A stretch of 44,943 bases of DNA from Holophagaceae bacterium (GCA_025358435.1 JANYJQ010000162.1:1-44943); one strand, 5' to 3'; numbered from the stretch's first letter, positions 10,524-31,818 are shown. Notes: generated from the letters alone by a model not told the origin. Program-made: numbers and translations.

Positions 10524-10749
10524 GATGCTCCTTGAAGTTCCCGTAAAACTGGCCTACACTTTGCTTGAACCAGACTCCAGGTGTTATCACCTCGGCACCC
10601 TTGCGGGTCGGCAATATTTTCATTTCTTAAAAAATACCATTGACACGGAGCTGGATTTTGGATTTTCTCTAAAGTTGCAATAGTGTTATCTTTCCCTAAA
10701 GCGTCTTCTCTTCATCTCAATCCTTCCCAATCCCCCTTTTGGAGGCTCT
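10524..10749. promoter_or_regulatory. Divergent intergenic region between leuS and lipoprotein 1
   Basis: This 226-bp gap holds the start signals of both genes. An AT-rich block around 10611-10680 contains a perfect -35-like TTGACA at 10640-10645 reading towards the lipoprotein, but no good -10 box is visible 16-18 bases further on. A GGAGG ribosome-binding site at 10741-10745 precedes ATG 10750, and AAGGAG precedes the leuS ATG on the other strand. No riboswitch or T-box structure was recognised. Confidence 0.35.
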
Positions 10750-13700
10750 ATGAACAACCCCAATCCGAAACTCCGGAATGCGCTCGGCATTTCGGCCCTC
10801 ACGGCGTTTTCGCTGGTGATGATCGGCTGCGGCGGATCGTCTTCATCCGCTCCCGTGGCCGTCAATGCGGCGCCCGGCAGTGTGACGATCAGCGGCTCGA
10901 ACACCGCTGTGACGGAACACGCGTCCATCTACAACCTGTCGGCTGTGGACCCCGAGAATGATGCGATCACCTTCAGCACCACTTCCACCGGCGCGACGAT
11001 CAGTGGCACCGTGCTGACCTTCCTGCCCCACGTCGTTGCTCCTGCCTCGGCTCCTGCGATCATCTCTGTCATCGCGACCGATTCCAAGGGCGCAGCTTCC
11101 CCCGCCAAGACTATCGCCGTTGTGGTCACCCCGAATGTGGCGCCCCACTTCAGCAGCACGCCTCCCACAGCGCCTATCGTTGTCGGCCAGACCCTGACCT
11201 ACACCCCAGTCTGCGAAATCGATCCTGAAGGTGACACGATCACCATCACCAAGACGAGCACAGCTGGTTCCTACACCTCTGGTGGCGCTTTCACCTACAC
11301 GCCCACCCTTGCAGACATCGGCCCCGTCACGGTCACCTTCTCGGCCAGCGACGCCCACACCGGCACCGCCACGCAGACCTTCACCTTCACGGTGGTCAGC
11401 AACAACACCGCCCCCCATATCGTCACTTCCAACATTCCCGATGTTCACCTGAACCACAACATCTCCCTCCAGTTCACAGCGACGGATGACGGCGTGGGTG
11501 GTCCTGCTCTGACTTGGGCGCTGGTAAGCCCCGTAGCGGGCTTCACCATGTCTTCCACTGGTTTGTTGACTTCGACCAACAGCACGCTTGGCGCCCGCAG
11601 CCTGACCGTCACTGTGACGGATGCCGGCGGCCTGACCGATACAAAGACCTACGCGACCAACTTCCTGGCCGATGGCCTGCCGAACTTCTCGACCCAGACC
11701 TACACGGAAACGGTGGGCGGCGTCCAGTTCTTCGATCCTTCCCGCGTCCGCACGACCATCGACAGCCGGTTGAAGTTCAACTGGTTGGACGTTGAGGCCA
11801 CTTCGGCTGAATTCTTCTCCAATTCGCCGGTCAACTCGATCAAAGGCTGGCGCGCGAACATCAGCGCCACGGACACAGAAGGCGATACGGTCAAGTATGC
11901 CGTCAAGCCGAACTCGGTCTTCCGTTTTGGCGTGCCCTACATCGACACCACCGCCGCCAACTACCCCGGCGTGGACGCGAACTCCGGCGAGATCCTGTGG
12001 ACTCCAAACCGCGGCCGTTACACTGGCCCCGGCAGCGACATCTCCTTGACCTCGGGTTTCAGCGGTCCTCTGGGTCACGATTCGACCGGCACAGATGTCG
12101 AAGGCGACTCTCTGGCCAATGTGCTTGATCCCGCCAACTGGTCGTTCACGATCGTGGCGCAGCAGTACATCGGTTCCGTAGCCACCTCCGGGCAGTTCAA
12201 CGAAACCACCCTGATCATCAAGGTCGAGCCCAATGATCGTCCCTACCAGGGCCCAGCCGACCTGATCTGGTTGGATGAGTCGACTCTGGCCGACCTGCTC
12301 CATGGCGTCTATTACGACGGCGGTTCCGCCGTTGCTGGCGTCGGTCGTCCCCAGATTCAGGAACCCCAGGCTTCTGATACCGGAGTGGTCCCCCACACCG
12401 ATGCCCCCACTTCCAGCTGGATCTGGGTCGTCGGCACCCCCGGCGGCACGAACTTCGGCAAGAACTGGAACGGCTTGAAAGATTACGGGCTCTTCGATCC
12501 CAACACCACCGCGCTCGATGGCCATATGGACGCCATCAAGATCGACTTCGGCTACCGGGCTGAAACCGATGCCAGCGCTGGCCATGCCACCGACCACCTG
12601 GTCAACGGTCCTCTGACCGGCCTCGTGTCCGGCACCCATTATCCGGCCCTTGATATCTACAACAACCTTCCGGCCGTCGACGCCGCGAACAGCTTGACCA
12701 ACGGTTTCTACAACCCCTGGATCGATGGCGCCACCGCCAGCCCAGGCAGCGAGATCGTATCTTGGGCCCCGATCCGCATCCAGTACACCCTTGGCCGCTA
12801 CATCGGCCAGAGCGCCTACAAGTTCGGCCTGGTGTCCGAGGATCAATACGGCCGCATGAACAAGGGCGAGAAGTCCATCTTCCCGATCTTCGGTACCGTC
12901 TTCATGTTCAACAGCCGCTATGTCTGGCTGGGTGACACGACCAAGACCTTGGTAACCGCTGCCTGGGATGCTGCTCCTCGCGGCACCTTCACAGCCACCG
13001 GCAACACCCACACCTCTGCACTCACCACTGACCAACGTTACGTCTTCAGCTACCTGCCCAAGGGCATCAGCAACAATGGTGACCTTATCCCCGGTCCTGG
13101 AACCGTTGGTTATAACGAATGGGTCGATCTGGACACCAACGCCACCTACGGCGCCAACCTTTTCGGCCGCAGTGATGGCGCGGGCGCCTTCGCCTCCGGC
13201 GTCAATACCAAAGCCATCCTGCCCCCAGCCCCTGCTTCCGGCAACTACTACAATGCCAGCGCCGGCGCATGGCACACACTTGACGGCCTGAATACCGGTG
13301 TCTTCGAGCTCGGCCCCACCTGGTACGAACCATACCCGGCCAACCCCCTCAATGAAGAACTGAACGGCCCCTCGCACGCGGCCGCGACCGTCGGCACCAA
13401 GGCCGGTGCTTCCCTCACCTTCGTGCAGTTCAAGGGCGGCACGCCCGATGGCACCGGTGGCGATCCAGTCAAGATCAATGTCACGGTGTCCGGCCCCTAT
13501 GCCGACAACACCGTCAAAGCCAAGATCGTTCCTTCCAACAGCCCCTACGATTTCTTCATCAACAACAGCAACAACTGGACTTCTGCGGCCGCCATCAAAC
13601 ACAGCAACGATGGCTACAATGCCCCCCGCTTCCTCAATACCCCCAAGCAGGGTGATGACTCCGAATTCACTCAGGCCATGCACCACTACTATGGCCAGCC

Positions 13701-15924
13701 CCAGAGCGAAGTTAACTATGCCTACATCGCTCCAGGCCGTGAAATCTGGTACTCCCCAGCCACGGAATGGACAGAAACCATTGGTGACTCCACCACGGGC
13801 ACTAGCGGCATCGGTGTCGGCCAGATCGACGTCCAGGCCCCACGCCTCCGCTTGAGCTACACATGGCCGTACATCGTGACCAACACCGCGACGGGCTACC
13901 TGTCCGCCGGCGCCCCCAATGTCTTCAGTGAGCAGGACGTGATGCAGATCGCGACGCCCAACCTCTCGGGCAACGCGCGCTTCTTCTTCACCGGCAACTA
14001 CCCGGCCGGGCTCGTCTTCAGCGGCGTTCCGATCGCCCTTCCGATCCAGGAACAGGGCGATGCCACCGACCGCAACTGGTTCGGCAAGTACGGCATCACC
14101 GGCGGCATCTCGGCTCCTGGCGACGTCACACCTACCGGCGTGGCGAATGCGATCACTCCGCCCTTCCAGCCCATGCACGTGGTGACGAACTCCATCTGGA
14201 TTCCCAACAACGCCGATCTGCACTTCAATTTCCCGAATTCCTACAACACCCCCGCCGGCGGTTCGGGTTACACCGACATCCCCTTCGTTGGCATCCGTGG
14301 ATACCTCGACGGTAGCTTGCTTCCCGCGCTGAACATGAACTCCACGCTCGCGCCCAATGCAGTGGACGTCAACCATCACTCTCACCAGATCACCTGGTTG
14401 ACGATCGGCAAGGGCCAAAAGTATAACGATGTGTCGCCCACGGGCAAGAAGCTTGACCGCAACGCCAACCCGGCCCTGCTCTCGACCACCTTGAACGACC
14501 GCATCTTCGCAGTGTGGATGAAGACGTCGCTCGCCAAAAATGCCAATGCCTATGGCGCCTGGGCCGGAAGTCAGTTGATCGCGGGTTCCTCCGTTGTCGC
14601 CAAGGGCGCCATCACCACAGCCCCCGCGTTCACGATGTCCCATGCTCCTGGTGCCCTCACTGACACCCAGGCCCAGATCTCCTTCGCTGTCAAGGACGGT
14701 CAGATCGGCGCAGCCAACCAGACGGTTACCGGCTCCACGGGCATCAGCCCTGATGGTTGGAAACGCCTTGAGTTCGAACTCCTGAGCAACGTCATGGGCG
14801 CACCTGCCCAGTTCGGCCTTTCAAGAGTCGTCAAACCCGTCCACCCGACCATCTTTGCCGGCGACACGAGCTTGATCACCAATGGCCTCTGGGACGGCAA
14901 CCTCCGCATGGATGACGGCATCGTCCGCGACAGCCTGGTGGTCTACGGCATCCGCGACCGCGGCACCAAGCCCCTACCGAACGACCGCACCTCCTACTCC
15001 AACCTGTTGGGTCAAGCCGGCATTGAACCCGGTGCTCCCGTACTCGCCCAGTGGTGGAACACCAACCCAGAAAACACCAAACCCGCGGGCCCCCTGCCAT
15101 GGGATATGCCCACCTCAGATATCGCTCTCACCTCGTTCCCAGCGGTCATCCAGGCTTTCGCCGATGAATGGCTGCCTAGCGCCGAATTCACAGAGGTGGT
15201 CGAGATCAGGCATAACTTCGTCGCCAAGGTCGTCGCTCCTGGCCTCAATGCCGCAGGCAATGTCATTCAGAAGCTCTACTTGGAACAGGGCGTGATCGCT
15301 CCCAGGGGCCACATCCTCCTGTCCCAGGCTGGTGGCATCAGGCCGGTGGTCACACCTGTCCGCCAGTTGGCCATCAACGATCTGAAGAGCAACCAGGCTA
15401 CCGGCGCAGTTAAAGTCGGCACCAAGCTCGACATCTTCAACGGCAACGCTGTCACGCCGGCTACCGGCAAGATGGCGGTCGGCGCGCCCGACTACAAGAT
15501 CTTCGACGGCAACAGCACTGCCGACTGGACCCTAAACGGCTACAGCAACTTGCAGTTGACTTGGCAGCCTGCTGTCAACGATCAGCGTCATCCCTCTGGC
15601 TACATCGCCACGGTCTACTTCGTCGAAAACAACGGCGGCGGACAGACCATCGCAACGCCAGTGGCTGAATACCGCATGGGCCACATCGGTGGCGTCGGCG
15701 CCCTGCAGACCCTGAACATGCCCCCACTGGTGTCCCTCACCAACGGTAAGGTTCCTAAGCCTCAGACCACCGCCTTCTGGGCTGTGAGTGTCCGCAATGT
15801 CTGGATCGAAGGCTCTGAAGGCAAGATGGGCCACAGCTTCGACATGGGCAAAGAGCCTTGGGGTACCCGCTTCCCCATGGCTTGGGCTGATTGCGTCTCT
15901 GGCGTATTCGTCGGCCGCTTCTAA
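10750..15924 (+). CDS. Giant Ig-domain lipoprotein 1 (novel family)
   Basis: A 1724-aa exported protein of unknown function. The N terminus is a signal peptide with lipobox (LVMIGC, lipidated Cys27), then a Ser-rich linker. Three cadherin/Ig-like modules follow at about 39-129, 130-218 and 219-306, with Ca-site-like DPENDAITF and DPEGDTITI. The first is very rich in Ser/Thr (23 of residues 41-120). The remaining roughly 1400 residues form a long core I cannot assign. It opens with YTETVGGVQFF and ends in FPMAWADCVSGVFVGRF, without a sortase, autotransporter or type IX signal. I count about 17 N-x-S/T sequons by eye. It is paralogous along its length to the lipoprotein at 18364. GGAGG precedes ATG 10750 and a strong terminator follows. 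A surface or periplasmic structural/adhesive role is a guess. Confidence 0.85.
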   Translation: MNNPNPKLRNALGISALTAFSLVMIGCGGSSSSAPVAVNAAPGSVTISGSNTAVTEHASIYNLSAVDPENDAITFSTTSTGATISGTVLTFLPHVVAPASAPAIISVIATDSKGAASPAKTIAVVVTPNVAPHFSSTPPTAPIVVGQTLTYTPVCEIDPEGDTITITKTSTAGSYTSGGAFTYTPTLADIGPVTVTFSASDAHTGTATQTFTFTVVSNNTAPHIVTSNIPDVHLNHNISLQFTATDDGVGGPALTWALVSPVAGFTMSSTGLLTSTNSTLGARSLTVTVTDAGGLTDTKTYATNFLADGLPNFSTQTYTETVGGVQFFDPSRVRTTIDSRLKFNWLDVEATSAEFFSNSPVNSIKGWRANISATDTEGDTVKYAVKPNSVFRFGVPYIDTTAANYPGVDANSGEILWTPNRGRYTGPGSDISLTSGFSGPLGHDSTGTDVEGDSLANVLDPANWSFTIVAQQYIGSVATSGQFNETTLIIKVEPNDRPYQGPADLIWLDESTLADLLHGVYYDGGSAVAGVGRPQIQEPQASDTGVVPHTDAPTSSWIWVVGTPGGTNFGKNWNGLKDYGLFDPNTTALDGHMDAIKIDFGYRAETDASAGHATDHLVNGPLTGLVSGTHYPALDIYNNLPAVDAANSLTNGFYNPWIDGATASPGSEIVSWAPIRIQYTLGRYIGQSAYKFGLVSEDQYGRMNKGEKSIFPIFGTVFMFNSRYVWLGDTTKTLVTAAWDAAPRGTFTATGNTHTSALTTDQRYVFSYLPKGISNNGDLIPGPGTVGYNEWVDLDTNATYGANLFGRSDGAGAFASGVNTKAILPPAPASGNYYNASAGAWHTLDGLNTGVFELGPTWYEPYPANPLNEELNGPSHAAATVGTKAGASLTFVQFKGGTPDGTGGDPVKINVTVSGPYADNTVKAKIVPSNSPYDFFINNSNNWTSAAAIKHSNDGYNAPRFLNTPKQGDDSEFTQAMHHYYGQPQSEVNYAYIAPGREIWYSPATEWTETIGDSTTGTSGIGVGQIDVQAPRLRLSYTWPYIVTNTATGYLSAGAPNVFSEQDVMQIATPNLSGNARFFFTGNYPAGLVFSGVPIALPIQEQGDATDRNWFGKYGITGGISAPGDVTPTGVANAITPPFQPMHVVTNSIWIPNNADLHFNFPNSYNTPAGGSGYTDIPFVGIRGYLDGSLLPALNMNSTLAPNAVDVNHHSHQITWLTIGKGQKYNDVSPTGKKLDRNANPALLSTTLNDRIFAVWMKTSLAKNANAYGAWAGSQLIAGSSVVAKGAITTAPAFTMSHAPGALTDTQAQISFAVKDGQIGAANQTVTGSTGISPDGWKRLEFELLSNVMGAPAQFGLSRVVKPVHPTIFAGDTSLITNGLWDGNLRMDDGIVRDSLVVYGIRDRGTKPLPNDRTSYSNLLGQAGIEPGAPVLAQWWNTNPENTKPAGPLPWDMPTSDIALTSFPAVIQAFADEWLPSAEFTEVVEIRHNFVAKVVAPGLNAAGNVIQKLYLEQGVIAPRGHILLSQAGGIRPVVTPVRQLAINDLKSNQATGAVKVGTKLDIFNGNAVTPATGKMAVGAPDYKIFDGNSTADWTLNGYSNLQLTWQPAVNDQRHPSGYIATVYFVENNGGGQTIATPVAEYRMGHIGGVGALQTLNMPPLVSLTNGKVPKPQTTAFWAVSVRNVWIEGSEGKMGHSFDMGKEPWGTRFPMAWADCVSGVFVGRF

Positions 15925-15950
15925 TACTTCTCAGATCCTCGCGATCGGAA

Positions 15951-15976
15951 AAGGGGCCCCTCGGGGCCCCTTTTTT
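15951..15976 (+). terminator. Rho-independent terminator after lipoprotein 1
   Basis: AAGGGGCCCC-TC-GGGGCCCCTT followed by a run of T gives a very stable GC hairpin with a U tract, 27 bp after the lipoprotein stop. It separates lipoprotein 1 from the downstream glycosyltransferase transcript. Confidence 0.9.
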
Positions 15977-16006
15977 AATGTCACAGCCAACAGTACAACC
16001 TGGGAG

Positions 16007-16060
16007 GCCGTTAGGCACTGGCCAGCGCATCTCTGGCCAGTGCTTAACGGCGCCTTGAGT
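16007..16060. repeat. Dispersed hairpin repeat, 19-bp stem
   Basis: Bases 16007-16025 and 16033-16051 form an inverted repeat of 19 bp around a 7-nt loop (CGCATCT), with a single G-T wobble and no other mismatch. Bases 16019-16060 match 67-108 at about 35 of 42 positions, so this is the same repeat family seen at the start of the window. There is no T run after the stem, and a separate terminator lies just upstream, so termination is not its obvious role. Confidence 0.8.
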
Positions 16061-16151
16061 TGGACGATCATCAAATTGACCCCGGTAGTTTGCTGCCGCT
16101 AAGTTCTTAGCTAAGCTTATGAATTCCTGAACCATCCGCGCCGGAGACCCC

Positions 16152-18245
16152 ATGGCATCAGATACCCTGACCGTAGTCGAACTTCACCAGCAGGGGACCC
16201 GCCTTCATCGCGAGGGCCGCTTGGCTGAAGCGGCGGAGGCCTACCAGCGCCTGCTCCAACTCGAACCGGGACGCGCCGACGTGAACGATTTGCTGGCGGT
16301 GCTGGAGCTGCAGCAGGGCCGCCTGCCCCAGGCCGAGGCTGCGGCCATGCGTGCCGTGGAATTGGATGGCTCCCGGGCCGGGTATCGGGCCAATCTGGGA
16401 ACCATCCTGATCCTAAGCGGGAAAGAAGACGAAGCTCACAAGGTCTGGACCGCCGCTCTGGCGCTGAATCCAGACAATGCAGCTTTACACCAGAATCTGG
16501 CGAAGGTGGAGATGAAGCGAGGCAACATGGATGCCGCTCTGGCCCACCTCGGCCGCGCCATCGAACAAGATCCCGATCTTCCGGCAATGAATGATTACCA
16601 ACGGAAAGGGATAGTGCGGCTGCTCGCCAAGCAGGGTGATGGCAGCGCGGTCCTGAGCGCAATGCAGGCGAACGTAGCAGCCAGGCCCGAGTCCCCAGAT
16701 GCCTGGGCCGACATGGGCGACGCCATGATGGGTTCTGGGGATCCAGATGGCGCATTCCAGATTTTCCAACATGTGTTGTCGTTGGCCCCGAGCCACCCGA
16801 GAGCCAACTTGGCGATAGCTGAGCGGATGCGCCAGGACGGTTTTCTGACCGGCGCCCTGGGGCGCCTGGACCAGGTGCTTTTCAAAGCCCCCAATCATCC
16901 ACGGGCATTGGCACTGCGGGGTCGCATCCTCATCGCGCAGGGACGAATCCATGAGGGAATGCAGGCTCTTGCTGCCGCCGTCAATCTGGACCTCACCCAG
17001 ATGGACGTGCATGATGCGGTCCTCTTTTTCATTCGGAACGACGAAACCCAGACCACGGCGACCATCCACCAAGCCCACGCCAAATGGGGCCGTTACGCCA
17101 TGTCCAGGGTGGCCCAGGCCCCGGTACGGACCCACGCCAATATCAAAGATCCCAAGAGGCGCCTGCGCATCGGCTACATCGGCCCCGACTTCCGCACCCA
17201 CGCGACCACCTTCTTCCTGGAACCCGTGTTGGAGCGCCATGACCACAGTGCTTTTGAGATCTTTGCCTATGCAGACGTGCCCTATCCCGATGAAGTGACT
17301 GAGCGGCTCAAGGGCCACTTCGACCACTGGCGATCCACATTGGGCATGGGAGACGAACAAGTGGCTGATTTAATCCAGACAGATGGAATCGATCTGCTGG
17401 TGGATCTGGCGGGACACACGACCCGCAACCGCCTCATGGCCTTGGCACTGAAGCCAGCGCCGGTGCAATTGCATTGGATAGGTTATGTGAGCACCACCGG
17501 GCTGCCCACCATCGACTACCGGATCAGCGATGAGCACCTGGACCCGCCAGGGGCCGAAGCATTAAGCGTCGAAAAAATCTGGCGCCTGCCCCGCACCCAC
17601 GTTTGTTACCGTCCCCTGCCCAACGCTCCCGATCCAGGCCCGCTGCCCGCCCGCGCCAACGGTTTTATAACCTTCGGCTGCCTGTCCAACATGGAGAAGA
17701 TCTCGAACAGCATGGTGGGAGCCTTCAGCCGTATATTGGCGGAGGTGCCGGGTTCACGACTGCTATTGCTTGGGTCTTCCACGGCGGACACCCAGACCCG
17801 CGCGGGCTGGATCGACCGGCTGGAGCAGGCCGGCATAGCTCCAGAGCGGGTGCAGTTCCTGCAGCGTGCGGATGCCATCGCGGATTACCTTGCCTACTAC
17901 CGGCAGTTGGATATCGCATTGGGTCCATTCCCCATGGTGGGGCTCACAACCGTCTGCGAATCCTTCTGGATGGGGGTTCCGATGCTTTGCCTTGACTACT
18001 GGGATGTAGTCAAAGCGGGCCCAAGCATCCTGATCAACCTGGGTCTTGAGGACTGGGTGGCGCCTGACAAGGATGCCTACGTCCAGAAGGCAGTGGCCTT
18101 CGCCGCGGACCTCGATGCCCTTGAAACACTTCGGGGAAGCCTCCGGGCGCGCATGGAAGCCTCACCCTTGCGGGACGAAGAAGGTTTCACTCAGGAATTG
18201 GAATCGGCTTACCGTGCGATGTGGACTTCCTATTGTGAAGGTTGA
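16152..18245 (+). CDS. TPR-containing GT41 glycosyltransferase (SPINDLY/OGT-like) A
   Basis: A 697-aa cytoplasmic protein with no signal peptide. Residues 1 to about 310 are tetratricopeptide repeats (for example EGRLAEAAEAYQRLLQLEPG). About 335-690 is a GT41 catalytic region like O-GlcNAc transferase: RIGYIGPDFRTH with His350 in the place of the OGT active-site His, IDLLVDLAGHT, PAPVQLHWIGYVSTTGLPTIDYRISD split over 437-460, Lys516 in the UDP-binding position (NMEKIS), and GLTTVCESFWMGVPML. Family members transfer GlcNAc or another hexose from nucleotide sugar to Ser/Thr, some to Asn. Start ATG 16152 follows GGAGA. It lies between the two giant lipoproteins, 118 bp before the second with no clear terminator between, which suggests they are substrates. 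Flagellin or pilin targets are alternatives. Confidence 0.88.
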   Translation: MASDTLTVVELHQQGTRLHREGRLAEAAEAYQRLLQLEPGRADVNDLLAVLELQQGRLPQAEAAAMRAVELDGSRAGYRANLGTILILSGKEDEAHKVWTAALALNPDNAALHQNLAKVEMKRGNMDAALAHLGRAIEQDPDLPAMNDYQRKGIVRLLAKQGDGSAVLSAMQANVAARPESPDAWADMGDAMMGSGDPDGAFQIFQHVLSLAPSHPRANLAIAERMRQDGFLTGALGRLDQVLFKAPNHPRALALRGRILIAQGRIHEGMQALAAAVNLDLTQMDVHDAVLFFIRNDETQTTATIHQAHAKWGRYAMSRVAQAPVRTHANIKDPKRRLRIGYIGPDFRTHATTFFLEPVLERHDHSAFEIFAYADVPYPDEVTERLKGHFDHWRSTLGMGDEQVADLIQTDGIDLLVDLAGHTTRNRLMALALKPAPVQLHWIGYVSTTGLPTIDYRISDEHLDPPGAEALSVEKIWRLPRTHVCYRPLPNAPDPGPLPARANGFITFGCLSNMEKISNSMVGAFSRILAEVPGSRLLLLGSSTADTQTRAGWIDRLEQAGIAPERVQFLQRADAIADYLAYYRQLDIALGPFPMVGLTTVCESFWMGVPMLCLDYWDVVKAGPSILINLGLEDWVAPDKDAYVQKAVAFAADLDALETLRGSLRARMEASPLRDEEGFTQELESAYRAMWTSYCEG

Positions 18246-18363
18246 GGCTACTTTTCGCGCTCAAGGCTGACTCTTCGTTGTACTGGAACCGGGGTTCTTC
18301 CGCTAATATGAAAGGTTGCGGTGGGATCACTCTCCCGGTTGCACCCATCGTTTGGAGGATTCC

Positions 18364-21300
18364 ATGCCGCTGCGCCCTGTCCGGTTCTTCATCCCGGTCT
18401 GCTTCGGATTGGCAGCGCTCGCAATTGGCTGTTCCAGCGGCGCCAGCGCCCCACCGCCTCCTGCCGCTCCGAACCACGCGCCGACACCACCGGTCATCAC
18501 AGGCCCGGACTCGGCTATTCAACGTCATCCGGTCACCTACACCCTGGCCTCTTCTGATGAAGATGGCGATGCCATAACGTTCTCGAGCAGCACCACGGGC
18601 GCCACCATCAGCGGCACCCACCTGACCTTCCAGGCTGCCGCCGCTGGGCCACAAACCCTGCAGGTTACCGCCCAGGACACCAAGGGCGGCGTATCCGGCC
18701 CTTCCAGCAAGACCATCCAGGTCGCTGCGAATGGCGCTCCAACTTTCACCAGTCCCGCATCCACCGTGTTCACTAACGTGAACAGTGGGAATCCACCGAC
18801 CTACACTTACATTCCCACCGCAACGGACCCCGAGGCAGACGAGGTAGTTTTTGGCTTGGTGGCTGGCAGCGTCGAGCAGGCAGTGGACTACCCGGGCACC
18901 ACCGGCACCTTTGCGGGCGTCGCCGACAGCATCATCAGTGTCATCAATCCAGGTGCGACCAGCGCCAATTTTGCAGTTTCATCGCAGGTGCCAGCCGGTG
19001 CCATCGCCAAACGCACCCGGTTGAAGGTGCGGGCCCAGGACCGCCTGCCCGGCAGTGCGGAACTGCTGGGGGCGCAGACGGATCTCACGGTCACGATGAC
19101 GGTGTTCGGCAACAATTTCCCTCCGGTCATACAGGCTTTCACGCCGCCCCAGGTGCGGGTGAACCACCCCGTGACGGGGGCGCAGCTCAGCGCCACGGAC
19201 CCCAATTCAGACGTGTTGACCTGGTCGCTGGTCAGCGTGGTGCCTGCTACTGCGGGTATCGCCATCACTGCATCCGGTATTTTGTCCTGGAACCCCGTAG
19301 CAGATACTGCCGCCCGCACCGTCGCGGTCAAGGTTTCGGACGGAAGGGGTGGAGAGGATCAGAAAATTTTCACGTGGACGCCGCAGCCGGACACATTGCC
19401 GTTCTTCACGCCTGCCCCCGCCTACACCGAGACTGTTGGCGGCGTGGCCATGCACGAGCCCCTTGTGCAGCGGGCCAAGATTTTGTGGCGTGAGCGGTTC
19501 AACTATTCGGACCCCCTTGCCACGGACGCGGAGTACCTCACAAACTCAGCATCTACTCTGCTCTCCACGGGCTGGCGTGCGTTTCTCAAAGCGGTGGATG
19601 CGGAATCGGACCCGATCCGCTTCATGATCAAGCCGGGATCGGTCTATCGGTTCGGCGCGCCGTATTCAGCCACCGGGAGTCCCAACTACCCCACCATCGA
19701 TGCCGTCAGCGGGGAGATAACCTGGAAACCCAATGGACTCCCGGGCGGCATCGGCAACCCGGGCGGGGACGCGGTCTCAGCTGCCGGTGATCCGCCCAAC
19801 TGGTCTTTCATCGTGATGGCCCAACAAACGTTGGGCGGTCAGCCTACACCAGGTTTTGCCGCAGAGACCACGATGAACATCCGTGTGCTGCCCAATGATG
19901 TTCCGACGATCGGACCGTTGCAGGAGTTCATCGGTGCCAGCACTCCGATTTCTGGCGTATCTGTGGGGGGCGGCAGTGGAACCGGATCCCCAGGACGGCC
20001 TTCCATTCTGGGGGTGCAGTCCTCAGATACGGAGAGCCCGAGCGCCCCAGCCAAGTTCATTTGGAAGGTTATGGGTCCTGGCCTGCCCGATAGCCCCGGC
20101 GATGATTATGGAATCTGGGACACCGATTCCATGGCTACGGACGGCCATCAAGATGCCCTGCAAATTGACCTGGGGACCCGCGCCATCGCCGCAGACGGGC
20201 AGGTGAGCGGGGCGTTATCCGGGCTGCGATCGGGCACGCATTTTCCGGCTGTTGATAGCACCGGGAATCTGCCTGGCGTGCTCCCCTTGGAAAGCTTGAA
20301 TTTCAGTTTCTACAACCCATGGATCCAGGGGCCCTATAGCCCTGGAGTAGTCACCGTAGGATGGGCCCCGGTCCGCACCCAGTATCAGCTCGATCGCTAT
20401 TTGGGCGGCGGGCAGTATGGTTTTCCCCTGATTGTGGAGGATCAGTACGCCAAGGCCTCGGCCCTGGAATTCCGCGTGGGACCCATAGAGGGGTCAGTCC
20501 GTTTCTTGAACCACCGGATACGCCAACGCAGCGATACGTTAGCGGATGCCTATGTTGCGAAGGGGCTGTTCACCGCAGCCGGGAATACCGTCACTGGCGG
20601 GAATGCCTATGTCTTCAGCTACCTCCCCGAAGGTTTCAGCGTGGCCCCCCAGAAACAGGAATCCGCGACGGGTATCCTGACCTACGGGAGCCACCTCCTG
20701 GGGAATGCCGTCGCCGGTCAAGGCGCGCCGGCCAGCGGATACTACTATTCGCTTGGGGATCCTAGCCCCACGGCGGGGAATTGGCTCACGCTGGATGGCT
20801 CACGGAACGGGGCCGACCGCCTCTATCCCCCAAATCCTTTGAACGAGACTCTTCATCCCGCCGCTCACGCTGCGGGCATGGCCGCGAGTCCCGCCAGCAC
20901 TACCGTGAGCCTGGTGCAGTGGGCCACCCCCGGCGACGCCGGGGGCACTCCCGTCCGAAGGACCCTCACTGTGTCGGGCCCCTACGCTGACGGAATGGCC
21001 TGGGCGCGTTCGGTGCCTTCCAATGCGGGTTATCTCTTTGTAGTGCCTTCGGTGGCACGGCCCTGGTCCGGCGATGGCATCATCACCCCCAGGCAATTGG
21101 GCATGCCCGATTTTTCCCGGCGCTGGATCTGGGGGCGCGCGCAGTCAGATGTGGACGTCCACGCGCAGGTGGCAGGCCGACCTGTGCTATTTCCCCAGCT
21201 AACTGTTCCTGCCGTCAACGTGGACAACCTTGGAACCTTCTTCACGCATTGGGCAACACTGCGGCTCACCTTTTTCTGGCCCCAGACCATTTCCCAGAGC

Positions 21301-23193
21301 GCCCCGGGCTACCCGGTGGTTGGAAGCTCCAACTCCTTCCAGGAAACCGATCTGATCCAGGTAGCCACTCCGAATCTGAGCGGCAATGCCCGTTTCTTCG
21401 TCACGGGCAACACCCCCGGTGTCAACCCTCCGGGCTTCGATAAATCCCCCTTGAACTACTTCGGCAAGTACGGTTTCACCACTGCGCCGTCAACTTACAG
21501 CGGGACTGGCGCTTTGCGGACCACGCACCCCCACCAGCCTATTCATGCGGTGACGAACTCTCTGTGGGTGCCCAACAACTCTGACGGTCGCAACCAGCTT
21601 CCCAACGCCTACACAACGCCCGTTGGCGGGGGCCAATACTGCGACATCCCCTGGGTGGGGATCCGCGGCTATCTGGCACCAGCGGCAGCGGAGCCTCTCA
21701 CCCAGATCTTCGTCGATACAACCTTCCGGACGGATGCAACCCAGGCTGTGGCCTCCCAACTTGCGGTGGCTATCAATCCAGCCAATCCATCCCTCACAGG
21801 CTTCCCGGAAGACGCCAGTGCCAATCCCGCCCTTCTGGACACTCCCACCTCCAAGGACCGAATCATGTTCCTTTGGATGAAACAGGCCAGCGGAGGCATC
21901 GCCAACGCCTATGGCGCCTGGGCCGGATCGGTGGTCACCGAGGGTACCTCTCCTTCAGTGCATGGTGGTGCAACGGTGCTCGGCCAGCCCCTTACCATGG
22001 GCCCCTTCGTCTCCAACCCCTTCGCGGAAGTGCTGTTCGCGGGATCTGACAACCTGGCCACCCAGCCAATCAGCACGGGGACGGGTATGAAGGCCTGGCG
22101 GCGGGCCGCATTCGAGGGTCTTGCGGATCTCATGGGGGCTCCATCGGCTCCAAACCGCCCGGCGCGTGTGCGGGTGGCAGATCCTTCCTCGGATTCCGCT
22201 GCATCCGGGCCAGGTACAACCGCAGCCCAGTTCGATTCCGGGGCGGCCACCTATGATGGCATCCCCTCGAACACCTTGGTTGTCTACGCTCTCAAAGACC
22301 GTTCGAAGACATCTGAATCTGGCGTTCTGGGGGAAGCCGGAATTGAGCCTGGGAGCCCCATCCTGGCGCAATGGTGGAATACGGGACACACCGACATCAA
22401 CGAAACCGATTTCCCGGGCGTGATCCGGGGCTGGTCCGACACATGGCTGCCCCCGGAATTCACGGAGGTGATCCATTTGAGCCACAGCTTCGTCGGCAAG
22501 GTGCAATTCCCCGATCAGGGACCTTCGGATCTGGTCGCGAAGGTGCTGCTGGAGGCCGGAGCCGTGCTTCCCAAGGGACACGCACTGCTCACGGATCCGG
22601 CGGGCCGGGGGCCGGTAATCACTCCTGTCCGTCAGATCCAGGTGGCCGACCTTAAAAGCAACACCGCCTCTGGGAATCTGGCCTTTGGCACACGCCTGGA
22701 TCTTTTCCTTGGAAGCGCAATGGAGATGGTCCATGGTGGGCCTACTGGAGGAGCGCCCTCATTCAAGCTTGAGGATGGCAATGGGACCGGCACAGACCAT
22801 CGTCTCAGCGCGTTCTCCACCTTCATGATTTCCTTCCAACCCAGCGCGGCGGACCCCCGACCACCCTCGGGCTATGTCGTATCCCTCTACCGCGTCACAG
22901 CCTTGGGGACGAGCGTGCCCCGCACTAGCCTGGCCTTGTTGCGGGAGGTGCACATGGGGCACCAGGGCAGCGCGGGGGCGGTCCAGCGGCTCTTCCTACC
23001 CAGCTTTTCTTCCATGGGCCAAACCATCCCCGGAGATAGCCGGGCGTTTGTCATCAAGGTGCGGGCTCTATGGCAGGAAGGTGATGAGGGGGCTACAGGT
23101 ACATCTCGCGACCTTGGGAAAGCACCATTCGAGAAGCGGTTTCCCATGGCTTACGCCGATGCCCTCAGCGGTGTATTCGTGGTCGCTTACTGA
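18364..23193 (+). CDS. Giant Ig-domain lipoprotein 2 (novel family)
   Basis: About 1609 aa, paralogous to lipoprotein 1. The signal peptide and lipobox end in ALAIGC (Cys23), followed by a Pro/Ala linker. Ig/cadherin-like modules cover about 40-122, 123-250 and 251-340, then YTETVGGVAMHEP opens the same long unassigned core. Shared blocks include TPNLSGNARFF, VTNSLWVPNN, VGIRGYL, NAYGAWAGS, GEAGIEPGSPILAQWWNT, PPEFTEV and SGVFV near the C terminus. It has fewer N-x-S/T sequons than its paralog (about 8 by eye). The frame is open 16 codons further upstream, but ATG 18364 begins a proper signal peptide and has GGAGG at 18354-18358. It is flanked on both sides by GT41 genes on the same strand. 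Function unknown; a surface or periplasmic structural role is inferred. Confidence 0.85.
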   Translation: MPLRPVRFFIPVCFGLAALAIGCSSGASAPPPPAAPNHAPTPPVITGPDSAIQRHPVTYTLASSDEDGDAITFSSSTTGATISGTHLTFQAAAAGPQTLQVTAQDTKGGVSGPSSKTIQVAANGAPTFTSPASTVFTNVNSGNPPTYTYIPTATDPEADEVVFGLVAGSVEQAVDYPGTTGTFAGVADSIISVINPGATSANFAVSSQVPAGAIAKRTRLKVRAQDRLPGSAELLGAQTDLTVTMTVFGNNFPPVIQAFTPPQVRVNHPVTGAQLSATDPNSDVLTWSLVSVVPATAGIAITASGILSWNPVADTAARTVAVKVSDGRGGEDQKIFTWTPQPDTLPFFTPAPAYTETVGGVAMHEPLVQRAKILWRERFNYSDPLATDAEYLTNSASTLLSTGWRAFLKAVDAESDPIRFMIKPGSVYRFGAPYSATGSPNYPTIDAVSGEITWKPNGLPGGIGNPGGDAVSAAGDPPNWSFIVMAQQTLGGQPTPGFAAETTMNIRVLPNDVPTIGPLQEFIGASTPISGVSVGGGSGTGSPGRPSILGVQSSDTESPSAPAKFIWKVMGPGLPDSPGDDYGIWDTDSMATDGHQDALQIDLGTRAIAADGQVSGALSGLRSGTHFPAVDSTGNLPGVLPLESLNFSFYNPWIQGPYSPGVVTVGWAPVRTQYQLDRYLGGGQYGFPLIVEDQYAKASALEFRVGPIEGSVRFLNHRIRQRSDTLADAYVAKGLFTAAGNTVTGGNAYVFSYLPEGFSVAPQKQESATGILTYGSHLLGNAVAGQGAPASGYYYSLGDPSPTAGNWLTLDGSRNGADRLYPPNPLNETLHPAAHAAGMAASPASTTVSLVQWATPGDAGGTPVRRTLTVSGPYADGMAWARSVPSNAGYLFVVPSVARPWSGDGIITPRQLGMPDFSRRWIWGRAQSDVDVHAQVAGRPVLFPQLTVPAVNVDNLGTFFTHWATLRLTFFWPQTISQSAPGYPVVGSSNSFQETDLIQVATPNLSGNARFFVTGNTPGVNPPGFDKSPLNYFGKYGFTTAPSTYSGTGALRTTHPHQPIHAVTNSLWVPNNSDGRNQLPNAYTTPVGGGQYCDIPWVGIRGYLAPAAAEPLTQIFVDTTFRTDATQAVASQLAVAINPANPSLTGFPEDASANPALLDTPTSKDRIMFLWMKQASGGIANAYGAWAGSVVTEGTSPSVHGGATVLGQPLTMGPFVSNPFAEVLFAGSDNLATQPISTGTGMKAWRRAAFEGLADLMGAPSAPNRPARVRVADPSSDSAASGPGTTAAQFDSGAATYDGIPSNTLVVYALKDRSKTSESGVLGEAGIEPGSPILAQWWNTGHTDINETDFPGVIRGWSDTWLPPEFTEVIHLSHSFVGKVQFPDQGPSDLVAKVLLEAGAVLPKGHALLTDPAGRGPVITPVRQIQVADLKSNTASGNLAFGTRLDLFLGSAMEMVHGGPTGGAPSFKLEDGNGTGTDHRLSAFSTFMISFQPSAADPRPPSGYVVSLYRVTALGTSVPRTSLALLREVHMGHQGSAGAVQRLFLPSFSSMGQTIPGDSRAFVIKVRALWQEGDEGATGTSRDLGKAPFEKRFPMAYADALSGVFVVAY

Positions 23194-23286
23194 TATAAAA
23201 ACAGGTTGAAACCCGCCTCCGTGCTGGATTCCGTCGAGGTTTGGCATGGATGGTGAACAGCTGGCAGCCAGGGTTGGAGGGACACG

Positions 23287-25152
23287 GTGATTTCGCTTGA
23301 GGCCGCCCTCGATGCGCTTGCCAGGAACGATAGCGCCCTTGCAGAGAGCATCCTGGATTCGATCCTCCATAAAGAGCCAAGACATGCGGGGGCTCTGTGT
23401 CTGCGGGCTGACATCTGCACCCGGAGAGGGGAAATCAAATCCGCGTTTGAAAACCTTGCCAGGGCTTTGGAACTTGAACCACGGAATCCGATGATCCATT
23501 TCACGGTGGGCCGGGCCTTCGAACGCGCGGGTCATCTTGAAAGGGCCGAACCCGCCTATCGGCACACAGTGGAATTAGCGCCCGGGCTGGTCGAGGCGCA
23601 TAGCCGCTTGGGGAATTGTCTGCTCGAGTTGGGCCGGAACCGGGAATCACTGGAGGTCCTGGGTCGTGTGCTGGAATTGCGGCCCGGCCATGCTGCGACC
23701 CTCAATACCATGGGCGATGCGCATCGGGGAATATTCCAGATGGAGGACGCGCGCCGCTGCTATGAAGCGGCTCTGGCTGCGGAACCACAGTCCGGCCGGG
23801 GGGAGTTGCGGATCAAACTTGCAATGCTGGTCCCAGCTCTGTGCGGTCCCGGGGAAATCACGAAAGTCCGCGCCCGCTATGCCTCGGAAGTGGCGCGCGT
23901 GGAGGCAGACCCACCCCTGATCCTGGATCCGGTGAATGAAGTTGGCTGCACATACTTTTTTCTGTCCTACCACGGTCTGGGCGATAAGGATTTGAACGTA
24001 GCCACATCGCGGATGTTCGAGAAGGCCTGTCCATCGCTCCTCTTCACCGCGCCCCATTGCGGACAGACGCGCCAACCGGGCCGACTTCGAATTGGGTTCA
24101 TTTCCCAGAATTTCCGCAACCACAGCATTGGACGCTCCTCTAGAGGAATCATCGCGAAGCTCGATCCAGCCCGTTTTGAGAAGACGGTCTACTTTTTTCA
24201 TGAGCCCAATGATGAATTCGGTCTTTTCATCCGCGATCAAGCTGAGCATGCGGTGGTGCTTCCTCTTGATCTGGATTCCGCTCGGCGCCGAATCGCCGAA
24301 GACCGATTGGACATTTTGTATTACCAGGACATAGGGATGGACCCCATGACCTATTTCCTGGCCTTCGCCCGCCTCGCCCCCCTGCAGTGCGTGCGCCACG
24401 GACACCCAGATACCACCGGCATCCGCAACATGGACTGGTGGATCTCCTGTGCAGGTTTTGAGCCTGAAGGGGCGGAAGCCCACTACAGCGAGCGTCTGGT
24501 GAAGCTCCGCGGGATTGCCGCGCCCACCTACTATTTCCGGCCTGAATCCCCCGAGGCCATGAAGACTCGCGACCAGTTTGGCCTCGAACCCCACGGACGG
24601 CTTTACACTTGTCCCCAGACCCTATTCAAATTTCATCCGGATTTTGATTCCACACTGGCGGGAATCCTGCGCGGCGATCCCGAGGGCCGGCTCGTGCTCA
24701 TCGCCTCCAGACATGAGGCTCTGACACAGGCTCTGCTGCGGCGATTCGGCCAGGCGATGCCGGATGTGGCGGACCGTGTGACTTTCCTGCAACCCATGCC
24801 CCACCTGGATTTCATGAGTCTCCTGGCGATCTCGGATGTCATCCTGGACACCACCCATTTCTGTGGAATGAACACCTCGCTGCAGGCCTTTTCCCTTGGA
24901 GCGCCAGTGGTGACGTTGCCGGGCGATTACCAACGCAGCCGTCACACGGCTTCCATGTATTGGCACATGGGGATCGATGCCTGCATCGCCAAGGATGGCG
25001 ATGATTATGTGAGGATCGCCCTTCGCCTTGGGCTTGATCCCGCCTTCCGTGCGGGGGTGCAGGCCGACATCCGTGAGCGTTGTGGCGGCCTCTTTGAGAA
25101 TCCACAGGTCGTTCAAGAATTCGAGCGTGTCTTTACCGAGGCCTTTACCTGA
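23287..25152 (+). CDS. TPR-containing GT41 glycosyltransferase (SPINDLY/OGT-like) B
   Basis: A 621-aa protein without a signal peptide. Residues 1 to about 170 are TPR units (AGHLERAEPAYRHTVELAPG and neighbours). From about 265 comes a GT41 region: RIGFISQNFRNH with His279, LDILYYQDIGMDPMTYF, CVRHGHPDTTGIRNMDWW, Lys448 in LFKFHPDFD, DTTHFCGMNTSLQAF and GAPVVTLPG. It shares the fold with the GT41 at 16152 but is clearly divergent in the acceptor-facing parts, so the pair may differ in sugar or target. It begins with GTG 23287 after GGAGG and lies 93 bp behind lipoprotein 2 with no obvious terminator, so 16152-25152 may be one transcript. Substrate is inferred from context only. Confidence 0.85.
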   Translation: MISLEAALDALARNDSALAESILDSILHKEPRHAGALCLRADICTRRGEIKSAFENLARALELEPRNPMIHFTVGRAFERAGHLERAEPAYRHTVELAPGLVEAHSRLGNCLLELGRNRESLEVLGRVLELRPGHAATLNTMGDAHRGIFQMEDARRCYEAALAAEPQSGRGELRIKLAMLVPALCGPGEITKVRARYASEVARVEADPPLILDPVNEVGCTYFFLSYHGLGDKDLNVATSRMFEKACPSLLFTAPHCGQTRQPGRLRIGFISQNFRNHSIGRSSRGIIAKLDPARFEKTVYFFHEPNDEFGLFIRDQAEHAVVLPLDLDSARRRIAEDRLDILYYQDIGMDPMTYFLAFARLAPLQCVRHGHPDTTGIRNMDWWISCAGFEPEGAEAHYSERLVKLRGIAAPTYYFRPESPEAMKTRDQFGLEPHGRLYTCPQTLFKFHPDFDSTLAGILRGDPEGRLVLIASRHEALTQALLRRFGQAMPDVADRVTFLQPMPHLDFMSLLAISDVILDTTHFCGMNTSLQAFSLGAPVVTLPGDYQRSRHTASMYWHMGIDACIAKDGDDYVRIALRLGLDPAFRAGVQADIRERCGGLFENPQVVQEFERVFTEAFT

Positions 25153-25174: not shown

Positions 25175-25846
25175 CTACTTCGATAAAACGAACCGGATGT
25201 CGACCTGCCCGCTGGAGGTTATCGCGCCTCCTCCGCCCCCGGGATAGATGATGGAACCGGTTAGCGTCCCATCGGAGGCGATGTTCCGAAGAGCCCAGAG
25301 GGAATAGGCGGTGAACTTGATCTCGGGCCGTGCGGCATCGGGAAGCTTAGGGTCCAGGGTGGGGAAGGGTTGGCTGAGCATGAAGCGAGCCTCTTCCTTC
25401 GCCTCAGTATTGGCTGCGGGCAGGAGGGTTTTTTTCGCCAGACCCTGCACGTAGAGGGAACCTACGGGATAGATGCTTTGTCCCCGTGCGCGAGCCATGA
25501 ATCGGATCGTTCCGATGGCCTGGAGCTTGTTCCCTGTGAATTCGATTTCCTCCATGACGCCTTTCCTCAGAGTGGAGGATTTCATGGAGAGCTTTGCGGT
25601 GCCCTTCTCGGCGGCCTTGGGATCAGCCACAAAATCGAAGGTCACCAGCCCGGACGGTGCAGTCACCTCTGAGAGGTTTCCTGGAATGCTGTATTCAAAT
25701 GTCTCAGAGGTCCGGATCTGGGCCATCTTTGTGTTCGCCTTGTGGTTGAGGCTGCCCTGGATGTGGAGGACGCAATGGGTGGACGCCGGTTTCGCCGGGG
25801 CCGGCTGAGCTATGAGGGTGAGGAGCATCGGAAGTAGGAATTGCAT
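25175..25846 (-). CDS. Secreted protein of unknown function
   Basis: A 223-aa protein with a cleavable-looking signal peptide (MQFLLPMLLTLIAQPAPA). The mature part is mostly beta-strand-like with many alternating hydrophobic residues and a glycine run (YPGGGGGAITSSGQ) near the end. I do not recognise the family. Two in-frame ATGs are present at 25852 and 25846; GGAG lies too close to the first and at proper distance from the second, so 25846 is preferred. It is the last gene of a three-gene minus-strand operon with two M16-like proteins, 27 bp behind the second, and is probably a periplasmic partner. It converges on the GT41 B gene. Confidence 0.7.
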   Translation of the reverse strand: MQFLLPMLLTLIAQPAPAKPASTHCVLHIQGSLNHKANTKMAQIRTSETFEYSIPGNLSEVTAPSGLVTFDFVADPKAAEKGTAKLSMKSSTLRKGVMEEIEFTGNKLQAIGTIRFMARARGQSIYPVGSLYVQGLAKKTLLPAANTEAKEEARFMLSQPFPTLDPKLPDAARPEIKFTAYSLWALRNIASDGTLTGSIIYPGGGGGAITSSGQVDIRFVLSK

Positions 25847-25873: not shown

Positions 25874-27187
25874 CTATTTAGAGGTGGAGGGCGGGTTCTC
25901 GGCGCCTGCTTGGTACTCTATGGCCAAGGTCTGCAGACGGTTGAGCTTCAATTGCTCCTTCACCCAGGTATGGAAGCGCTCTGGGGCAAGGGCCCTAAGA
26001 TCGGCAAGGAAGGTGGACTTTCCATCTGCCAAAGCGGCTTCCTGAGCCCTTTCGATGGCGGAGGAAAGGCGGGATTCTTCACGGAGGATGAGGGCTTTTC
26101 GCAGAAGTTCGAATTCCGCTGGCTGGATCCCATTGGTCAGTAAGGCGTGCAGCCATTCTTGAAGCTGTGCACGACAAGCTACGGTTTCATTGGGAAGTGG
26201 CGCCGCCGCAAAACCGAGAACCGCAGGAAGGATGGTTCCGCCCTGGGTGCAAATGGCTTTGACCGCATTTTGCAAACTTCGGGGGTCTTGCGCGGCCCGC
26301 CATGCTAGCCACTCCCCTGCAAGGGCCAAGGATGCTGAGCGCGGGCCTGAGTGCATGGCCAACCCCAAGGCGAAGGCTTGCCGATTGCCGTAGGCCGGGG
26401 CCTTGATCGTCGCAGCGCGCGGACCTTGGTCGCTCCGTGGAACCAACGTTTCCGCTTCCGCGCTGGTGGACGCCCAGTCCCGCAGGCGGCTCTCCACCCA
26501 TTCGCGCACCACCTCGAAGGGCAGTGGTCCGGCCAGAAGAACCTTCATGCGTTCAGGCCGGAGGAGCTCTTTCTGTGCTGCGATGACCTTTGCGGGCTCC
26601 ACGGCGTCGATGGCTTCCAGAGGGGACAGACCGCCGCGGCCTTCACCCCTCGCCCAGTCGACGAACAGGACCTGAATGCGCTCCAGTGGCTGTTCCAGCA
26701 GGGTGGACTGCCGCCGCACGGCCAATTCCTTCTCAAAGTACAGCCGATCCGGTGCCACGAATGGGGAGCGGAGCAGATCCACGGTGAAGCCGAGAATCGT
26801 CTCAAGATGCTGGGGGTCAGTGTGGAGCCGGAGGGAGAATGAATCGGGGTCTTCGAAGAATTCGGGACTTGTGCCCAATCGTTCCAGTTCCTTCGAGAAA
26901 TCGCGGAAATTCATCGCCGCAGTCCCACCTTCGCCAATCAGACGGAATCCAAAAGAGAGGGCAAGCCCACTTCCTTTGGTTTGGGGCAAGTGGGAGACAT
27001 CAAAATCAATCCGCATTTCCGTTCCCGAAAGCATGGCGTCACGGCAGTAGGCGACTTTGAGACCACTGGGAAGGCGGAACACCATGGGAGCGTCAGGGAT
27101 CCCTTCGGGGCCAGATTTAGGCCCCGCATGGAGAAGCCCGACGGCCAAAAGGACGATTGAACAGATTCGATGCGTCGGGTGCATCAT
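25874..27187 (-). CDS. Exported M16-like protein B, apparently non-catalytic
   Basis: A 437-aa protein with a signal peptide (about 1-21, ending LLHAG), then a pitrilysin/insulinase (M16)-type fold inferred from FRLPSGLKVAYCRDA, the helix FSKELERLGTSPEF, RLHTDPQHLETILGFTVDLLRSPF and a second half-domain with ALGLAMHSGPRS. The zinc motif HxxEH expected near residue 77 is replaced: GLALSFGFRLIGEG stands where active enzymes have GLAHxxEHxxF. It should therefore not bind zinc in the usual way and may serve as the partner subunit of an M16 heterodimer. The ATG overlaps the stop of the upstream M16-like gene by 4 bp (ATGA). The adjacent partner also lacks the motif, which is unusual. Confidence 0.72.
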   Translation of the reverse strand: MMHPTHRICSIVLLAVGLLHAGPKSGPEGIPDAPMVFRLPSGLKVAYCRDAMLSGTEMRIDFDVSHLPQTKGSGLALSFGFRLIGEGGTAAMNFRDFSKELERLGTSPEFFEDPDSFSLRLHTDPQHLETILGFTVDLLRSPFVAPDRLYFEKELAVRRQSTLLEQPLERIQVLFVDWARGEGRGGLSPLEAIDAVEPAKVIAAQKELLRPERMKVLLAGPLPFEVVREWVESRLRDWASTSAEAETLVPRSDQGPRAATIKAPAYGNRQAFALGLAMHSGPRSASLALAGEWLAWRAAQDPRSLQNAVKAICTQGGTILPAVLGFAAAPLPNETVACRAQLQEWLHALLTNGIQPAEFELLRKALILREESRLSSAIERAQEAALADGKSTFLADLRALAPERFHTWVKEQLKLNRLQTLAIEYQAGAENPPSTSK

Positions 27188-28905: not shown

Positions 28906-29325
28906 AGATTCACCTCCTTCTCTTCGTGGGCGGCACCCTTCAAAGGTTCCAGTTCTTGCCTTGGAAAGGAATGGCCGCGTGTCCTTAACTGACCTGATTG
29001 CTGCGGGAAAGGAATCCAGCGCGACGATTGAACCTTTTTCAAGGGTTGCTCTTAACTTTACAACACTCCCCCTGTAGACAGCAGGCGGATACCTCGAAAT
29101 GGCCCCGTCGCATCGGATGGCCTCGAAAACCAAGCAGAGCATGTCCAATATTTCCAGGAATGCAGGATTCTCCGCTCCACACGGATAAGGGTGGCAGGAT
29201 CGGCCGCAAGCCCCTGTTGCATCCCTCGAGAAGGGGACTGGAATCCACCCCCGCGGCCACTGATCATCCTCGACCTGTTTTCAGGCTAGGATGAGGGTTG
29301 GGGCCATTCGCCCCTGGAGAGAATC
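28906..29325. other. Divergent intergenic region, 420 bp
   Basis: No convincing gene is seen between the M16-like A start (minus strand) and the TPR protein start (plus strand). The minus frame remains open through part of it but lacks coding character. Both promoters should lie here. A TTGAAC at 29026-29031 is the best -35-like hexamer on the plus strand, but its -10 partner is poor. No hairpin of note was found. Confidence 0.4.
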
Positions 29326-31623: not shown

Positions 31624-31644
31624 AGACACCTGATCGATCGAGAG

Positions 31645-31672
31645 TCCAGCGTGGACGATAGGGCACGCTGGA
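31645..31672 (-). promoter_or_regulatory. Perfect 9-bp inverted repeat upstream of the methyltransferase
   Basis: TCCAGCGTG at 31645-31653 and CACGCTGGA at 31664-31672 are exact reverse complements with a 10-nt spacer, 22 bp before the methyltransferase ATG. It could be an operator or an mRNA hairpin near the ribosome-binding site. No terminator-type T run follows. Confidence 0.5.
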
Positions 31673-31818
31673 GCCAAAGGTTGCTGGACGAGCCGATGGG
31701 CGACGGCGAGCCGGACGAAATGGCGAGTAGATGAGAAAAGCGTAGCTTGGGGGTGTGATCGGAGCCATCGCCTTCTTGGTGGCCGTGTCGGGCGATCATT
31801 GCACGACTCTCCTTTCTC

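Follow-up and report, generated by a model that had tools for sequence, protein, structure and literature searches.

An inserted GT41-lipoprotein-GT41 block behind a resident giant lipoprotein gene in a Holophagaceae genome, with possible protein glycosylation

Two giant lipoprotein genes and two GT41 glycosyltransferase genes alternate on one strand of a 44,943-nucleotide stretch of Holophagaceae DNA (the window). Comparison with related genomes indicates that a resident lipoprotein gene, LP1, is followed here by an inserted block of three genes, GT41A, a second lipoprotein gene (LP2) and GT41B. The best explanation, put forward tentatively, is that GT41B from this inserted block glycosylates LP2 and perhaps the resident LP1 as well. 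The finding is real, yet it is not a conserved system, and, as judged from sequence, dedicated protein glycosylation is possible but unproven. The window is contig C185 of source genome G000 (2.4 Mb, 76% complete, 211 contigs), and its closest named relatives are Holophagaceae/Acidobacteria MAGs. Its own genus, g1, comprises G000–G004, and G008 belongs to a sister genus, g5.

The order LP1, GT41A, LP2, GT41B on the plus strand at 10750–25152, described in the first-pass annotation, was confirmed by ORF calls. LP1 and LP2 are indeed paralogs (42–43% identity across ~1,500 aa), and each has a signal peptide ending in a lipobox-like Cys, as in Sec lipoproteins (MIG-C27 in LP1, AIG-C23 in LP2, these being the predicted lipid-bearing residues). 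Both GT41 proteins lack a signal peptide and retain the conserved His and Lys, also as first described. None of the four genes has a broken frame, and their GC content and codon use are ordinary for the contig. To the left lie genes for a CNNM/CorC-type transporter, FTCD, PALP and leuS, and to the right a TPR gene, rlmN, a peptide-release-factor gene and a P-type ATPase gene; both flanks are syntenic in G001–G004 and G008 as far as the contigs of these relatives extend. No tRNA or structured RNA was found within the window as an integration site. Between GT41B and the right flank, a small protein gene (25175–25828) and two M16-peptidase-like genes (25874–29148), all on the minus strand, probably belong to the variable segment. 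The product of the former shares merely 29–33% identity with that of the small gene behind the lipoprotein gene in relatives, and M16-like genes are absent from the corresponding interval of G002, G004 and G008. The two M16-like genes and a methyltransferase gene (30103–31677), with unusual codon use, also break the ancestral order of the interval.

The resident gene can be read as a single self-contained unit in the leuS–rlmN interval, with its own promoter region, leader and 3' terminator. The leuS-LP1 intergenic segment (10524–10749, plus strand), with the putative promoter region and a GGAGG ribosome site, is conserved across the genus. In a five-allele DNA alignment of this segment and the first ~200 nt of LP1 the mean column identity is 83%, and the upstream region and leader are nearly identical in G000, G002, G003 and both alleles of G004; the leader is conserved throughout the genus. 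LP1 itself (10750–15924, plus strand, 1724 aa), delimited by ORF, Pfam and alignment, consists of the leader (residues 1–26), the lipid Cys27, cadherin/Big_9-like modules to about residue 320 and an uncharacterised core of ~1,300–1,400 aa. Directly 3' of its stop codon are a GATC-box and a GC hairpin, AAAAGGGGCCCCTCGGGGCCCCTTTTTT, which form a predicted intrinsic terminator (15938–15985, plus strand; fold −26 kcal/mol, z −4.2) that was detected by reading and folding after the automatic terminator scan had missed it. The same signature lies 3' of the syntenic lipoprotein gene in G002, G003, G004 and G008 and is absent downstream of LP2. Because this strong terminator separates LP1 from GT41A, the four genes are predicted not to be a single operon.

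Behind its conserved promoter and leader the body of LP1 appears to have been replaced or to have diverged fast, since it is only 33–39% identical to the lipoproteins of G003, G004 and G008, although leuS of G000 and G003 is 88% identical. The lipoproteins of G003, G004 and G008 are 59–69% identical among themselves. Set against 10524–10900 of the window, loci L062, L064, L066 and L070 keep the promoter and leader and have a very different mature body, a body-replacement pattern of surface proteins. Elsewhere in the same genome, an unlinked secreted protein of 1,255 aa (L069, 4649–8416) carries a ~190-aa Ig-type module 66% identical to residues 38–230 of LP1, which suggests a recent module exchange between surface proteins.

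We interpret GT41A-LP2-GT41B as an insertion beyond the resident terminator, seen only in the window genome, because LP1, like its syntenic counterpart in relatives, has the terminator signature behind it and LP2 does not. The inserted block is bordered on its left by a REP-like palindrome with 19-bp arms (16007–16051; 16000–16062 folds at −41.5 kcal/mol, z −5.7). This palindrome is dispersed and common to the genomes of the genus, with further copies in the window at 6–24 and 81–99 and elsewhere in G000 (C170, C117), G002 (C1) and G003 (C114, C145, C80). In G008 the interval is contained in one 112-kb contig and reads PALP, a single lipoprotein gene, a small gene, a TPR gene, a gene for an Ig lipoprotein of ~831–832 aa, and rlmN. 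No GT41 gene occurs in this complete lipoprotein-to-rlmN locus, the nearest being about 8 kb from the lipoprotein gene, past rlmN and on the opposite strand. At the right junctions of G004 (C60) and G002 (C24) the last lipoprotein gene is followed by flank genes without a GT41 gene, and the G003 contig stops within the lipoprotein terminator; the interiors of the locus in G002–G004 are broken in assembly, and a GT41 gene could sit in such gaps. Among the 20 other GT41 genes of G001–G004 and G008, none adjoins a gene for the lipoprotein core. The search of related genomes for co-occurrence, suggested at the outset, therefore found lipoprotein homologues without a GT41 neighbour at all readable junctions, and a conserved lipoprotein-GT41 pairing is contradicted by the whole locus of G008 and the right junctions of G004 and G002.

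LP2 (18364–23193, plus strand, 1609 aa) was assigned the ATG at 18364, which is preceded by a GGAGG ribosome site, in place of the TTG at 18316 where the mechanical ORF begins. For both lipoproteins, Pfam returned short Big_9/cadherin-like matches confined to the first ~320 aa, so that the Ig label first given to them holds for this part and is not established for the rest, and the core of ~1,300 aa has no matching family in Pfam or NCBIfam. Across 396 genomes of the phylum the core was matched only in genus g1 and in G008, the remaining matches covering the Ig-like N-terminus only, and a scan of GTDB species genomes for the core returned only four contigs, from three genomes already in the set. 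The core thus appears to be an undescribed, narrowly distributed family, found in two genera. AlphaFold2 models of the core from two runs with five-row alignments had mean pLDDT values of 27 and 36, too low to yield a fold. Ser/Thr-rich modules or Asn sequons had been proposed as the glycosylation targets, and neither is in excess. Ser plus Thr make up 18.0% of LP1 and 17.4% of LP2 (18–22% in lipoproteins without a GT41 neighbour), and the sequons number 18 in LP1 and 8 in LP2 against 18.2 and 9.2 expected. Enrichment of either kind was accordingly rejected as a signature of glycosylation.

GT41A (16152–18245, plus strand, 697 aa; SPINDLY-like) and GT41B (23287–25152, plus strand, 621 aa) were assigned by Pfam and by tree as TPR proteins with a GT41 catalytic domain. 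Pfam Glyco_transf_41 matches GT41A with 129.1 bits (E 2e-37) and GT41B with 86.5 bits (E 1.7e-24) at a gathering cut-off of 25, and multiple TPR models match both N-termini. The conserved residues are His350 and Lys516 in GT41A and His279 and Lys448 in GT41B, equivalent to OGT H498/SPY H495 and OGT K842/SPY K665, respectively. Three conserved pocket positions that are Ser, Asp and Tyr in most relatives are occupied by Ala, Gly and Met in GT41A. The Ala follows the catalytic His (the SPY Ser496 position), the Met stands at the SPY Tyr744/OGT Cys917 position, and the Asp of the LD-FP motif is missing in GT41A only among 46 catalytic domains. Substitutions S496A and Y744A lower the activity of SPY significantly (PMC9715652). 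GT41A might be impaired or might accept a different donor. The catalytic site of GT41B looks intact, with the His-Ser, the Lys and the conserved Asp all kept and a Phe at the SPY Tyr744/OGT Cys917 position. In a tree of the 46 domains GT41A falls within the main clade of the family (best relative 48% identical in the catalytic domain), and GT41B, on a long branch, falls in a separate, well-supported clade shared with other families of the phylum (30–35% identity). We regard the two as unrelated acquisitions of separate origin. Duplication of a lipoprotein-GT41 cassette, copied once, was ruled out by their placement in different well-supported clades. Of the dedicated system first proposed, the predicted cytoplasmic TPR-GT41 enzymes and the paralogous lipoproteins stand; a dedicated, conserved pairing does not, LP1 being a separate unit and the GT41 enzymes differing in origin.

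How might such a locus work? The leuS–rlmN interval of the genus holds a single giant, abundant-looking surface lipoprotein gene (LP1 in the window genome) with its own promoter, leader and terminator, and behind it, in the window genome, stands the inserted GT41A-LP2-GT41B block. LP2 and GT41B would be transcribed together, as their 93-bp gap without a terminator suggests. In the cytoplasm, the TPRs of GT41B could bind unfolded LP2, and perhaps LP1, and, ahead of Sec export and lipidation, the enzyme could use a soluble nucleotide donor to attach a simple sugar to Ser/Thr; analogues of this proposed step are the action of HMW1C on HMW1 (at Asn) and of FlmG on flagellin. GT41A would be a further enzyme whose donor pocket has changed, or else a copy that is non-catalytic or degenerating. 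LP2 is favoured as a substrate by the lack of a detected flagellin and by its position tightly between two unrelated GT41 genes. Against this, the link between GT41 and lipoprotein traces to one event, in a single MAG that is 76% complete, and gene position by itself cannot settle the substrate.

O-glycosylation of LP2 by GT41B is, in our estimate, the likeliest single function, but it stands level, short of an even chance, with the view that the block is accessory cargo in a variable spot between leuS and rlmN, and that the targets of GT41A and GT41B are different surface proteins, pilins or glycans, without any special tie to LP1 or LP2. The interval has here also gained the M16-like genes and the methyltransferase gene with low codon scores, relatives hold other genes in it (for example, that for the separate 832-aa Ig lipoprotein) and have no GT41-lipoprotein link, and the GT41 genes of g1 occur in many unrelated contexts; two unrelated GT41 genes on the same strand around one lipoprotein paralogue are nevertheless a tight arrangement for random cargo, and, with flagellin undetected in the genus, no alternative target stands out. 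Large secreted neighbours of GT41 genes in G001, G003 and G004, considered as analogous substrates, proved to be propeller-type hybrid histidine kinases. A weak second case of a GT41/Ig-type neighbourhood was seen in G004, where a GT41 gene is two genes away from that for a 946-aa immunoglobulin I-set protein (L105, 40–5191). A more ambitious and rather unlikely reading is that GT41A-LP2-GT41B is a transferable module for cytoplasmic glycosylation, its two unrelated OGT-like enzymes adding two different sugars to a giant lipoprotein ahead of Sec export and lipidation.

Flagellin, the alternative target of the GT41 enzymes considered earlier, does adjoin GT41 genes in another sister genus, g4, together with fliD, fliS and nucleotide-sugar genes (flagellin was confirmed by Pfam for G032 and G043, the remaining g4 neighbours being named from sequence resemblance). 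Several g4 loci (L190, L191, L193–L196), with up to three GT41 genes in tandem, are candidates for FlmG-like flagellin glycosylation. In g1, each of the five genomes has 2–9 GT41 genes, and no flagellin (Flagellin_N) was detected in G000–G004, G000 being 76% complete. GT41 enzymes present where flagellin is undetected probably have another target. GT41A and GT41B could then be former FlmG-like flagellin enzymes, kept after loss of flagella and acting on general surface targets with the lipoproteins as some of many, and GT41A does lie in the same broad clade as the g4 enzymes. We consider this improbable: the catalytic domain of GT41A is only about 38–42% identical to theirs and clusters apart from those of the flagellin-linked enzymes, and GT41B is placed elsewhere in the tree, in a clade that includes other families. 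In G003 (L092, 7914–9776) and G055 (L197, 2786–4030), members of two genera, a GT41 gene with nucleotide-sugar genes nearby is almost identical, which we ascribe to recent transfer or MAG contamination. Finally, although the MAG is fragmented and the assemblies of G002, G003 and G004 break at the lipoprotein locus, an artefactual join of unrelated segments is very improbable, because relatives share the flanks at either end of this 45-kb contig, and the four genes have intact frames and a composition ordinary for it.

Precedent exists for modification of exported surface proteins by cytoplasmic GT41-type enzymes, HMW1C being encoded beside its substrate (PMC7591256; PMC3983070). HMW1C and ApNGT resemble the present enzymes in the GT41 fold, in a gene adjoining that of a large exported surface protein, and in cytoplasmic action before Sec export, as would apply here, but HMW1C has an AAD domain (PMC3983070) where GT41A and GT41B have TPRs. 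The window locus, moreover, has no TpsB partner gene, sequons occur at chance, and the scores for the NCBIfam NGTferase equivalog (26.6 bits for GT41A, 52.2 for GT41B) do not reach the cut-off of 1000. FlmG of Caulobacter crescentus is a cytoplasmic O-glycosyltransferase of flagellins (PMC7591256), similar in its substrate-binding N-terminal part, OGT-like catalytic domain and action before export, and similar to the g4 enzymes in its association with flagellins. Its target is, however, exported by the flagellar route, whereas the neighbours in the window are Sec lipoproteins, and G000–G004 have no detected flagellin substrate. The best solved-structure relative of GT41A is the protein O-fucosyltransferase SPINDLY (E 5.5e-100). 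GT41A shares the catalytic His and Lys with SPINDLY and TtOGT/XcOGT, but the SPY residues Tyr744 and Ser496 are Met and Ala in GT41A and Phe and Ser in GT41B. The bacterial OGT homologues XcOGT and TtOGT are without a demonstrated bacterial protein substrate (PMC9715652; PMC4683255). Short N-terminal stretches of LP1 and LP2 resemble bacterial Ig/cadherin-repeat lipoproteins (Big_9, Cadherin_4/5), whereas the core lies outside described families.

Searches of the open-access literature turned up no work on GT41 enzymes of this bacterial family, or on a GT41 enzyme modifying lipoproteins. To our knowledge, few natural substrates have been described for bacterial OGT-like GT41 enzymes beyond flagellins and HMW-type adhesins. 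If the transferable-module reading were true, the module would have joined a locus at which relatives have no GT41 genes beside the resident lipoprotein gene. The lipoprotein core is an undescribed family in which a strongly diverging body follows a conserved promoter and leader. LP2 and GT41B form the most testable candidate enzyme-substrate pair, and this genus, which combines as many as nine GT41 genes in a genome with giant surface lipoproteins and undetected flagellin, is good ground on which to look for new substrates.
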